A stretch of DNA of 64,000 nucleotides, from NCBI GenBank assembly GCA_015152555.1, contig SUTS01000003.1:1-64000 (forward strand), given 5' to 3'. This stretch comes from Cyanobacteria bacterium SIG26. GTDB taxonomy: Bacteria; Cyanobacteriota; Vampirovibrionia; Gastranaerophilales; Gastranaerophilaceae. The notes under the pieces were generated by a model. It had not been told where the DNA came from and ran no database searches. It saw only the letters and a list, made by a program, of their open reading frames with translations. The position numbers and the translations under genes were made by a program. Below, piece by piece: positions 31,789 through 60,231 of this stretch (position 1 is its first letter; each line of letters begins with the position of its first letter).

Positions 31789-31862
31789 GCGTGCGTAGCT
31801 CAGTTGGATAGAGTGTTTGGCTACGAACCAAAAGGTCGGGGGTTCGAATCCCTCCGCGCGTA
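31789..31862 (+). tRNA. tRNA-Arg(ACG)
   Basis: The cloverleaf folds fully: the acceptor 5' strand GCGTGCG pairs with CGCGCGT (first pair G-U). The D arm is GCTC...GAGT, the anticodon stem TTTGG/CCAAA has loop CTACGAA with anticodon ACG, and the T arm is GGGGG-TTCGAAT-CCCTC. The discriminator is A and CCA is not encoded. A degenerate copy of the 3' end lies 171 bp downstream. Confidence 0.96.
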
Positions 31863-31957
31863 GATAAAAGAGACCTCGCAAGGGGTCTTTTTTATTGCGA
31901 GGGATGAGAACCCACCAAGCGCAAGCTTGGTTTGGTTCGAGCGAGGAGCGAGCAGAG
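31847..31957 (+). repeat. Copy 1 of a direct repeat containing the tRNA-Arg 3' tail
   Basis: This 111-nt unit runs from T-loop position 58 of tRNA-Arg through the terminator into a GC-richer segment ending GAGCGAGGAGCGAGCAGAG. It recurs at 32018-32117 with a few substitutions and one gap of about 14 nt. Confidence 0.85.
31871..31893 (+). terminator. Rho-independent terminator of tRNA-Arg
   Basis: Stem AGACCTC/GGGGTCT (one G-U pair) with a GCAA tetraloop, followed by six T. Confidence 0.85.
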
Positions 31958-32017
31958 GCTGAAAGGCGGGGCGTTTAGACCCGACTCTAACGCCGTTTAA
32001 TGCGAGCGACTCAAGAC

Positions 32018-32117
32018 AATCCCTCCGCGCGTAAATAAAAGAGACCTCGCAAGAGGTCTTTTTTAATTGCGTAGGGATGAGACAGCTTGGTCTGGTTCGA
32101 GCGAGGAGTGAGCAGAG
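32018..32117 (+). repeat. Copy 2 of the tRNA-Arg 3'-tail repeat
   Basis: It starts AATCCCTCCGCGCGTA, identical to the tRNA from T-loop position 58 to the discriminator, but no 5' tRNA half precedes it. The terminator copy (AGACCTC-GCAA-GAGGTCT, 32042-32059) pairs perfectly, the G-U of copy 1 being A-U here. Its offset from copy 1 is 171 bp. Confidence 0.85.
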
Positions 32118-32195
32118 TATACTTTATGTATTTTATTGTCCGTTTTGCTCGGATGTATTTTAATGAGTAGTTTGGTCGGAAACAATTTTTATTTT

Positions 32196-32279
32196 GTCAC
32201 CCTGAACTCGATTCAGGGTCTATCCCAAATGGTGCTTTACGACTAACATTGATAGATTCTGAGTCAAGCTCAGAATGAC
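32196..32279. repeat. Long palindromic repeat (GTCA...TGAC, 84 bp)
   Basis: Left arm 32196-32224 and right arm 32251-32279 match over 29 positions. About 22 are identical as inverted repeat, and the rest are transitions that still allow G-U pairs in RNA. Each arm is itself a small palindrome (CCTGA...TCAGG and TTCTGA...TCAGAA). The same class of element occurs at 33121-33186 and in weaker form at 201-272. Confidence 0.7.
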
Positions 32280-32530
32280 TTTTTGAGGTCGGAAGTTTAC
32301 CAATCCAAACTGGACCAAAACGGTCTTTTGATAGACTTTATTTTCCAATCTTATATACACTCACCCGCCCTTTAGGCACCCTCTATCTTGACCTATTCGC
32401 GTTAAACGTGTCTGCGTGTTTTGCTACAGAGTTTCCAACTCTTTGCAAAAGCACTCCGCACTCTGCTCATAGGTCGCTCCCACAAGGGGCGAGGGTAATA
32501 TAAGTCACTTTTGGGAATTTTGATATTAAA

Positions 32531-58024: not shown

Positions 58025-59875
58025 ATGAAAATAATAAACATTTGCCACAACAGTTTGAATTTATTATTAGAAATTCTAAAAAATGATATGCAAAAAAAAA
58101 TTACAACAGAAAAAATAAATAATATAAGATTTATTAAAAACTATAGAAGAATGTGGCCATATATAAAACCTTTTTGGTTTCGAGCATTATGTTCAATGTT
58201 AATATGTATTCCTATTGGTTCATTAGATGCAGTTATAGCACTTGCATTAAAGCCATATATGGATTTGGTCATGGTTGAAAAAACAGTAAATTCACCTTGG
58301 TATATCCCATTGGGGATAGTTGCATTTACCAGTTTGCAAGGTGGTTTAAAATATCTATCATCATATCTTTCAACCTGGGTAGGTTGCAACATAACCAACG
58401 GATTAAAAAAAGATTTATTTAAAAAACTTTTAACTTTCCCTAGCTCATTTTTTGACAAACAAAACTCAGGCGATATAGTATTTCAATTCAACAATATGGC
58501 TGACAGTGCTTGCATAGGTCTTTTAGATAATTTGAGCATCTTTACACAAAGAATATTTTCATCTGTATCTTTAGTTGCAGTACTTATTTATAATTCAATA
58601 GACCTAGCACTTATAGCTGTAATCGTATTAGCCTGCGCATTTGCACCTGTCGCGAAATTACAAAAACGAATAAAAAGCGTACTGGACAAAACCGTTGTAG
58701 CAGACTCCTCAATTATTACAATGTATAATGAAGTATTCGCCGGCAACAAAACTATTGCATCATATAATCTGAATGTCAAAGAAGAAGAAAAATTTAAAAA
58801 TATACTCAAAAATATATTTAATTTAAAAATAAAAATGGTACAAAAAACACAATGGTTATCCCCGATGATGCATATAATTGTATCAATAGGAATTGCCGCA
58901 ACAATAGGATACGGGAGCCATTTAATTATGAGCGGGAAAATAAGCAGTGGGAATTTTGTATCTTTTATAACTGCATTAATACTACTATATACACCTGTAA
59001 AAAATCTTGGGAACAACCTTAATGCAGTACAATTTTCATTTTTTGCTATTGAACAAATTTTTGCAAAACTTGAAGCAGAACCTGAAATAAAAAATAACCC
59101 GAATGCTATCGAATTAAATTCTAATATTTCGACAATAAGATTTAATAACGTAAACTTTGAATATACACCAAACGTACCGGTATTAAGTGATATTAACTTA
59201 ACAATTAATAAGGGTGAAGTTATTGCATTTGTAGGAAACTCCGGAGGTGGGAAAACAACAGTTGTCAATCTGCTTCCTAGATTTTATGAGATTAAATCTG
59301 GAGAAATTTTAATTAATAACATAGATATAAGAAATTACACACTAGAATCGCTAAGAGAAAATATAAGTGTAGTATTCCAAGATAATTTCTTATTTAACGG
59401 GACAATACGCGAAAACATATTATTAGGAAAACCAAACGCAACAGACTCAGAAATTCAAAAAGCAATAAAAATGGCTTATTTGGAAGATTTTATATCAACC
59501 TTAGAACATGATATAGATACTGAAATCGGAGAACGAGGCATATTATTATCCGGAGGACAAAAACAACGAGTCGCTATAGCTCGAGCATTTTTGAAAGATG
59601 CTCCAATTATTGTACTTGACGAGGCAACAAGTGCACTTGATAATCAAGCAGAAAGAATTGTACAAAAAGCAATTGAAAATCTAATGCATGATAAAACAGT
59701 ATTTGTTATTGCGCACAGATTAAGTACAATACAAAATGCCAATAAAATAGTAGTTATAAATCATGGAAAAATAATAGAAACAGGCACACATCAAGAATTA
59801 TTAAAAATAGATAATGGCGCATATAAATCACTTTATGAATTGCAATTCAAAAACAAGAAACACGCTCAGATATAA
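58025..59875 (+). CDS. MsbA-type ABC exporter (fused permease and ATPase)
   Basis: A 616-aa half-transporter with six membrane helices (about 50-340) and a C-terminal ATPase: Walker A GNSGGGKTTV, Q-loop SVVFQDNF, signature LSGGQKQRVAIA, Walker B IIVLDEAT and His-loop VIAHRLST. MsbA/PglK-like exporters flip lipid A or lipid-linked oligosaccharides. As last gene of the glycan operon it is the likely flippase for the product. The 45-residue extension before the first helix is longer than usual, but GAGG before the ATG supports this start. A terminator follows. Confidence 0.9.
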   Translation: MKIINICHNSLNLLLEILKNDMQKKITTEKINNIRFIKNYRRMWPYIKPFWFRALCSMLICIPIGSLDAVIALALKPYMDLVMVEKTVNSPWYIPLGIVAFTSLQGGLKYLSSYLSTWVGCNITNGLKKDLFKKLLTFPSSFFDKQNSGDIVFQFNNMADSACIGLLDNLSIFTQRIFSSVSLVAVLIYNSIDLALIAVIVLACAFAPVAKLQKRIKSVLDKTVVADSSIITMYNEVFAGNKTIASYNLNVKEEEKFKNILKNIFNLKIKMVQKTQWLSPMMHIIVSIGIAATIGYGSHLIMSGKISSGNFVSFITALILLYTPVKNLGNNLNAVQFSFFAIEQIFAKLEAEPEIKNNPNAIELNSNISTIRFNNVNFEYTPNVPVLSDINLTINKGEVIAFVGNSGGGKTTVVNLLPRFYEIKSGEILINNIDIRNYTLESLRENISVVFQDNFLFNGTIRENILLGKPNATDSEIQKAIKMAYLEDFISTLEHDIDTEIGERGILLSGGQKQRVAIARAFLKDAPIIVLDEATSALDNQAERIVQKAIENLMHDKTVFVIAHRLSTIQNANKIVVINHGKIIETGTHQELLKIDNGAYKSLYELQFKNKKHAQI

Positions 59876-59889
59876 TAAATTATAAAAAA

Positions 59890-59943
59890 ACTAAAAAAGA
59901 CCCACTGATGTGGGTCTTTTAGTAATTGCTTCAGGCCAGACTT
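59890..59943 (-). repeat. Copy 2 of the tRNA-Leu 3'-tail repeat
   Basis: On the minus strand it reads AAGTCTGGCCTGAAGCA (one mismatch to the tRNA-Leu 3' end from T-loop position 57), then the spacer and the terminator hairpin. The matching copy at the functional tRNA is 60052-60104, offset 162 bp. No 5' tRNA half adjoins it. Confidence 0.85.
59896..59919. terminator. Bidirectional terminator after the glycan operon
   Basis: AAAGACCCAC / GTGGGTCTTT with loop TGAT; T4 follows on the plus strand and T6 on the minus strand. Its near-identical sister ends tRNA-Leu. Confidence 0.85.
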
Positions 59944-60057
59944 TGCAAAACGAACAGGCGAAGTATGAGCCTTGTGAGCTTGCATGCGTAGGCGTTTACG
60001 CCGAAGCTGGACTGGAAGGAAAGGATGGCCGTCATATAAAATTAAGAACATACTAAA

Positions 60058-60081
60058 AAAGACCCACTTATGTGGGTCTTT
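60058..60081 (-). terminator. Rho-independent terminator of tRNA-Leu
   Basis: The same 10-bp stem with loop TTAT. On the minus strand six T follow directly. Confidence 0.88.
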
Positions 60082-60087
60082 AGTAAT

Positions 60088-60173
60088 TGCTCCAGGCCAG
60101 ACTTGAACTGGCACCGAGATTGCTCCCGATTGGATTTTAAGTCCAACGCGTCTACCGATTCCGCCACTGGAGC
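60088..60173 (-). tRNA. tRNA-Leu(TAA)
   Basis: Acceptor GCTCCAG/CTGGAGC. The D arm is GCGG...TAGACGC, the anticodon stem TTGGA/TCCAA carries loop CTTAAAA (anticodon TAA), the long variable arm is CGGGAGCAATCTCG, and the T arm is GCCAG-TTCAAGT-CTGGC. Discriminator A; CCA not encoded. 86 nt, class II as expected for Leu. Confidence 0.96.
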
Positions 60174-60202
60174 TTATCAATAGCATTTCGGCTAACAAGT
60201 TT

Positions 60203-60231
60203 ATAGTATAACAAACATATATTATTGTCAA
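60203..60231 (-). promoter_or_regulatory. Promoter of tRNA-Leu
   Basis: A perfect TTGACA (60226-60231) overlaps the patatin stop codon. A TACTAT box (60203-60208) follows at 17-bp spacing; TATACT (60205-60210) at 15 bp is an alternative. Confidence 0.65.

Follow-up and report, generated by a model that had tools for sequence, protein, structure and literature searches.

Units behind tRNA genes of Gastranaerophilales are probably TLR-type, self-restoring DNA hairpin elements of the T-loop

INTRODUCTION

The discovery of tRNA-linked repeats (TLRs) in E. coli dates from 1978, and their function and origin are still unexplained (PMC8144298). E. coli K-12 carries 22 copies at ten loci, for which no function is known (PMC8144298; Rudd 1999), and over 18–19 bp, the TLR 3′ end exactly matches the tRNA or 5S gene that lies upstream of it (PMC8144298). 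The rrA, rrB and rrF sRNAs of the same species lie in rrn operons, in the interval that separates the two terminators, and are transcribed and processed (PMC8144298). An rtT-like sequence within BIMEs has been described in a study of attenuators (PMC2965389). Integrases are known to target the part of tRNA genes that extends from the T-loop to the 3′ end, and the elements that use this part restore the tRNA with a copy of its tail. Here, we compare these systems with units that are located behind both tRNA genes of the window, i.e. the whole 64,000-nt stretch of the uncultured gut bacterium Cyanobacteria bacterium SIG26 that was analyzed, and behind stable RNA genes of related genomes.

RESULTS

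The tRNA-Leu and tRNA-Arg loci

Downstream of the tRNA-Leu(TAA) gene, a truncated copy of its 3′ end is present at a spacing of 162 bp (repeat finder, family D2), and each of the two tails is followed by a near-identical terminator (Table 1). At 53%, the GC content of the spacer exceeds that of its surroundings (∼30%) and of the window (32%). An earlier note, made from the sequence alone, had claimed this truncated copy with its terminator, a copy start at T-loop position 57 that is nearly the same in tRNA-Arg, a GC-richer spacer with a GGCGT-AA-ACGCC hairpin, and the same design at both tRNA genes of the window. All of these claims held (the copies start at nucleotides 57/58). The description of the feature as a duplicated tail was incomplete, as the unit also brings a terminator of its own and a T-arm antisense stretch. 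A 121-aa reading frame at 59866–60231 on the reverse strand overlaps tRNA-Leu and was taken as spurious.

Table 1. Features of the tRNA-Leu and tRNA-Arg loci in the window
Feature	Positions	Strand	Evidence or remark
tRNA-Leu(TAA), intact	60088..60173	−	ARAGORN; Rfam RF00005, 62 bits
Tail copy 1, AAGTCTGGCCTGGAGCA, T-loop 57/58 to discriminator base, within the functional tRNA	60088..60104	−	
Terminator 1, inside the Leu unit	60058..60081	−	terminator scan
Antisense (guide) stretch of the Leu unit, CCATCCTT	60021..60028	−	
Copy of the Leu T-arm 5′ half, CCAGTCCA in the window	60008..60015	−	
Hairpin core of the Leu unit	59944..60007	−	
GGCGT-AA-ACGCC hairpin, within the Leu core	59991..60002	−	compensatory changes in relatives
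Tail copy 2, AAGTCTGGCCTGAAGCA	59927..59943	−	16/17 identical to tail copy 1
Terminator 2 of the Leu locus	59895..59920	−	terminator scan
tRNA-Arg(ACG), second tRNA of the window	31789..31862	+	ARAGORN; Rfam
Complete tRNA-linked unit, common core type	31897..32034	+	model R1, 120 bits, E 1e-30
Truncated second unit after the Arg unit (guide, hairpin, GGTTCGAGCGAGGAGTGAGCAGAG)	32066..32117	+	repeat finder, D4
Common core inside CCCTCGCCCC..GGGCGGGTGAGTG palindrome, not at a tRNA	32368..32499	−	R1, 82 bits; occupied/empty comparison

In the window, the guide of the Leu unit pairs at six of eight positions with AAGTCTGG of tail copy 2; in congeners G260, G113 and G256, the guide CCAGACTT pairs at all eight, so the window carries two mismatches. 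As in the Arg family, the copy of the T-arm 5′ half lies ahead of the core; it reads CCAGTTCA in 7/7 aligned relatives. The same unit is found at the orthologous tRNA-Leu(TAA) of seven congeners (six with the tail copy and one truncated), which indicates that not every copy is recent; the tRNA-Leu(TAA) loci of other congeners are without it. A 52-bp stretch of the Leu core recurs 11 more times in the genome, never at a tRNA tail. When eight sequences of the Leu unit were compared, 94% of cells were paired, with 19 double changes (8 in shuffled controls) and zero G-U pairs. In single-sequence folding, the window Leu spacer folded no better than shuffles, either as RNA or as DNA, and the structure therefore rests on covariation and not on energy. 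An Rfam search of the whole loci found no RNA family at the unit, and a resemblance to hammerhead and group I intron sequences was dropped, since it was limited to short words without an Rfam hit.

The tail copy of tRNA-Arg(ACG) lies at an offset of 171 bp and is identical at 16/16 positions (repeat finder, D1). The unit to which it belongs comprises the guide GAGGGATGAGAACCC, a hairpin, the T-arm 5′ half, the core and the tail copy (32018–32033). Several copies of the Arg core are present in the genome, both at and away from tRNAs. The checks proposed in the earlier note included a search for spacer relatives elsewhere, which were found for both the Leu and the Arg cores, so that the coincidence reading fails, and a test for one spacer family shared by the two loci, which failed. 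The Arg and Leu spacers belong to different core families set in the same frame. Another dispersed repeat, TGTATTTTAATGAGTAGTTTGGTCGGAA, is found at 32115–32170 and 32200–32290 of the window and in many tRNA flanks; it repeatedly begins exactly at the point at which a unit is truncated, be it after the antisense stretch or after the core.

Anatomy and covariation of the unit

Read from the tRNA, the order of parts is as follows: the tRNA up to T-loop nucleotide 58, tail (59–73), terminator 1, the T-arm in reverse complement, a small hairpin, the 5′ strand of the T-stem copied together with TTCGA, the hairpin core with CAAGAC at its end, tail copy 2, and terminator 2. The core thus lies in the T-loop of a split T-arm, both halves of which pair with the antisense stretch. 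This stretch scored a mean of 11.2 of 17 against its own tRNA and 9.7 against other isotypes; examples are GGGTGGAT against ATCCACCC at tRNA-Tyr and ATACGTGAC against GTCACGTAT at tRNA-Val.

The structure was evaluated with a hand-drawn model of 37 pairs in 41 units from many isotypes and genomes, without energy prediction. Overall, 85% of cells were paired, and the number of double-change cells was 265, compared with 97 in shuffled and at most 86 in slid alignments; the covariation score was 0.38 (0.15 when shuffled). The stem formed by the antisense stretch and the tail copy was paired in 74.6% of cells, with double changes in six of its seven pairs. The share of G-U pairs in core helices was only 1.2%; in the same genomes, it was 8.3% in the acceptor and T stems of tRNAs (p 2e-12) and 5.9% in terminators (p 3e-6). 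These p-values are indicative only because the sequences are related. The direction of the deficit suggests that the helices are maintained at the DNA level, as hairpins in which G-T pairs poorly, or are renewed by copying between arms.

Several variants of the antisense stretch were observed. In core-bearing units, GAG replaces TCG in its middle. A core-less unit at tRNA-Arg(CCT) of G112 (L266) has a perfect antisense T-arm, GCGATTCGAACGC. At a tRNA-Glu(CTC) gene with the T-loop TTCAATT (L130), every position of the antisense GGGGAATTGAACCCC is complementary, and the usual GAG mismatch is missing.

Distribution among stable RNA genes and genomes

The genome (1.86 Mb in 21 contigs) was scanned by comparing the tail of each of its 35 tRNA genes with its own downstream DNA, as had been proposed in the earlier note, with 175 mismatched tRNA/flank pairs as a control. 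An own-tail copy with a score of 12–17 was found at 13 tRNAs (Thr-CGT, both Lys, Gly-TCC, Gly-GCC, Arg-ACG, Arg-CCT, two Asn, Val-GAC, Leu-TAA, Leu-TAG and Tyr), and none of the mismatched pairs exceeded 11 (0/175 in that range). Nearly all copies start at tail position −16 or −17, which corresponds to T-loop nucleotide 57/58. Pro-TGG has a degenerate tail copy, and the tmRNA gene is followed by a tail copy and a complete unit (L071 1472–1640, C13:2820–2988). Further tmRNA cases were seen in other MAGs (L131 and L138).

A 24-nt core pattern identified 93 stretches of the genome collection. In other MAGs, 70 of the 89 hits are located directly behind a tRNA or tmRNA, with more than 10 isotypes represented, and the distance from the tRNA end to the GGTTCGAGCGA motif is usually 56–92 nt. 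Carriers with names are nearly all Candidatus Gastranaerophilales/Melainabacteria-type gut and rumen MAGs; the others are gut MAGs and one labeled Acinetobacter, which is probably mislabeled. A covariance model of the commonest form of the unit (R1), run on a phylum sample of 194 genomes, matched 76, every one of the same family (76 of the 85 sampled), and no genome of other families or classes in this sample. The process acting on tRNA 3′ ends that had been postulated in the earlier note is supported by the occurrence of copies at this set of tRNAs and tmRNA and in most genomes of the family.

Copy numbers per genome reach 15 or more. Two or three units may form an array with a spacing of 178–187 bp (three units 178 bp apart in L119), and tails 1 and 2 often have different terminators. 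In another tandem array, at tRNA-Arg(CCT) (L046 1571–2220), the core differs and contains a GGATTTTGAT..ATCAAAATCC stem; its copy number is uncertain because of a run of N within the array. At a tRNA-Leu(GAG) gene (L050 region, C2:5974–7112), the right end of a unit is present in degenerate form; the sole Y1 transposase gene of the genome lies 0.7 kb downstream.

Occupied and empty sites and the search for a mover

Three copies of the core in the genome, including the one in the window, are embedded in a palindrome CCCTCGCCCCTTCTGGG..AGAGGGTGCCCAAAGGGCGGGTGAGGG, which occurs a fourth time, at C3:143724 (L207), in an empty state. The difference between occupied and empty forms is precisely 94 bp, and each of the two joints shows AG. 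The precise insertion of one core is thereby shown. At tRNA-Asp, G037 is occupied and G112 is empty, and the two differ by 212 bp between 22-bp direct repeats. The flank past the second Asp tail of G037 corresponds to the flank past the sole tail of G112 (84% identity). The Asp pair alone does not prove gain, because loss by recombination between tail copies would look identical. Differences between congeners are large: three of them carry units at 13/35, 5/37 and 2/40 tRNAs, at mostly different isotypes.

No mobility gene accompanying the unit and no autonomous version between the same ends were found. A Y1 transposase is present in 29 of 88 genomes, unrelated to unit number, and is absent from several genomes with 14–15 units. 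An IS110 (DEDD) transposase, which would be expected if the units were IS110/IS1111 bridge-RNA elements or derived from them, is present in one of 25 genomes, that one without an R1 unit, and is likewise unrelated to copy number. Both were rejected as movers, as neither tracks copy number. In L075 (3183–5090), the halves of a unit are ∼1.9 kb apart, with LemA-like and TPM-domain-like frames (named by eye) between them; this locus, the only candidate for an autonomous version, was judged to be a rearrangement in which two halves of one element were parted by host genes. Viral contigs, phages and plasmids gave no match to the units.

Comparison with TLRs and other known systems

The units resemble E. 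coli TLRs in many respects. They are located immediately downstream of tRNAs on the same strand (Leu and Arg in the window, and the 70 of 89 hits in other MAGs). The tail identity (16/17 for Leu, 16/16 for Arg and 12–17 at the 13 tRNAs) satisfies the TLR criterion of 18–19 bp, or 15–16 bp where CCA is not encoded. The start of the copy is also the same; the E. coli tyrT, tyrV, argQ, argZ and argV copies begin at T-loop A58 or A59. In E. coli, an antisense T-stem stretch likewise precedes the core (GGGGAAGGATGAGAAG in tyrV and GGGAGGAT in argV), and the antisense stretch pairs with the tail copy as in the closing stem of RF00391, a criterion that is met here. The E. coli tyrTV locus shares the GGATGAGAA...GGTTCGA frame (i.e. 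GGATGAGAA..AAGGTTCGA), and tandem arrays are common to both, with a spacing of 178 bp in E. coli and L119 and three units in E. coli tyrTV. However, the units described here belong to a different phylum, occur also at tmRNA and often contain their own terminator, and their cores are also found away from tRNAs. Searches with Rfam RF00391 (rtT/RttR) gave no hit in the window and none above the cut-off in 21 genomes (best E 0.97). The few weak hits in the genome include the Tyr unit, with this best value, and the window Arg unit (E 3.7), and R1 matches behind E. coli tyrT with E 0.065. Because the anatomy matches while the Rfam threshold is missed, the units are filed as of the TLR kind by anatomy and not as members of RF00391. 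They are thus probably TLR-type, and whether they share descent with the E. coli elements or converged on the same design is undecided.

Resemblance to other systems is partial. The rrA, rrB and rrF sRNAs share a tail copied from the stable RNA that precedes them (13 nt of 5S), dual terminators and a hairpin-rich spacer; however, they are linked to 5S rRNA and not to tRNA, and no antisense stretch of comparable length was found in the E. coli sequence comparison. REP/BIME elements (RAYT/Y1) are also short intergenic DNA hairpins with many copies, mosaic with other palindromes, whereas the units described here sit in the T-arm and carry a tail copy, and Y1 is missing from many unit-rich genomes. 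In tRNA-targeted integrative elements, the insertion is also in the 3′ half of the tRNA, with the gene restored by the tail that is carried in, but our units have a length of only 162–212 bp, lack an integrase or cargo, and contain an antisense stretch and conserved hairpins.

DISCUSSION

The feature is best explained, in our judgment, as a TLR-type element, a self-restoring DNA hairpin element of the tRNA T-loop. The unit would sit in the T-loop of the tRNA gene, between nucleotides 57 and 59, and the gene would be restored by the copy of the tRNA 3′ end and the terminator that the unit itself brings; since the unit carries its own tail and terminator, the old ones would remain downstream. 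In its body, copies of the T-arm halves would enclose the core, which consists of clustered DNA hairpins, with the antisense stretch ahead. The anatomy, the recurrence at 13/35 tRNAs and tmRNA, and the covariation of the helices and of the antisense stretch with the tRNA are directly demonstrated. No enzyme that moves the units has been identified, and it is the near absence of G-U pairs that makes a mobile DNA hairpin more plausible than a conserved RNA. A bolder reading, which we regard as improbable, is that TLRs are cross-phylum, self-restoring DNA hairpins that find their targets by base pairing. The antisense T-arm would then be a guide that recognizes the invaded tRNA gene, or is rewritten to match it, and an unidentified enzyme supplied in trans would insert the unit into the T-loop.

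The main rival, which remains possible, is a functional structured RNA that is produced by read-through of terminator 1 and whose structure is kept by selection. The tail copy would be a tRNA-like 3′ processing site, and the hairpins and antisense stretch would form an sRNA or tune tRNA 3′ maturation. The E. coli RrA/B/F RNAs have lengths of 173 and 115 nt and bind Hfq and CsrA in vitro (PMC8144298), rtT constitutes an Rfam family, covariation is strong in both the 41-unit set and the Leu unit, and position and strand are fixed behind stable RNA genes. Against this reading, the G-U share is 5–7 times lower than that of tRNAs and terminators from the same genomes, presence among congeners is patchy, the same core also occurs in unrelated palindromes away from tRNAs, and TLRs have no known function (PMC8144298). 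Read-through and processing of our units is conceivable only by analogy, having been shown for E. coli RrB alone (PMC8144298). The DNA-element reading and an RNA role are compatible, and both may hold.

Tandem duplication, by slippage or unequal crossing-over of a downstream repeat with tail and terminator and without a mobile unit, is favored by genuine arrays (L119 and E. coli tyrTV) and by the truncated second unit after the window Arg unit. We nevertheless consider it unlikely, as a single T-loop breakpoint recurs across more than 10 isotypes, different core families and E. coli, the second Asp tail of G037 abuts the flank of the unoccupied site, and the terminators behind tails 1 and 2 often differ. 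A shrunken tRNA-targeted integrative element of the tyrosine recombinase type, with the tails as attL and attR, would agree with the T-loop location and the restoring tail copy. This is very doubtful, given that integrase or cargo was found in none of ∼70 loci, that 162–212 bp leaves no room for a gene, and that phages, plasmids and viral contigs contained no matches. The cores, conserved in sequence and fold across genera, are for that reason units and not random leftovers. Coincidence, in the form of two independent deletions or chance repeats, has nothing in its favor beyond the small sample on which the earlier note was based, and it is practically ruled out by the contrast between 13/35 tRNAs and 0/175 mismatched pairs at equal score.

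Compared with E. coli TLRs, what is new is the occurrence of such units in another phylum and at tmRNA, occupied and empty sites that show the insertion of a discrete 94-bp core, the turnover of units between species, and the almost complete lack of G-U pairs. With many core families and covariation data from this second, distant lineage, the TLR puzzle becomes testable: what inserts, at which exact site, and whether selection acts on the DNA or on the RNA. Duplicated tRNA tails that are encountered in genome scans are not necessarily integrase scars.
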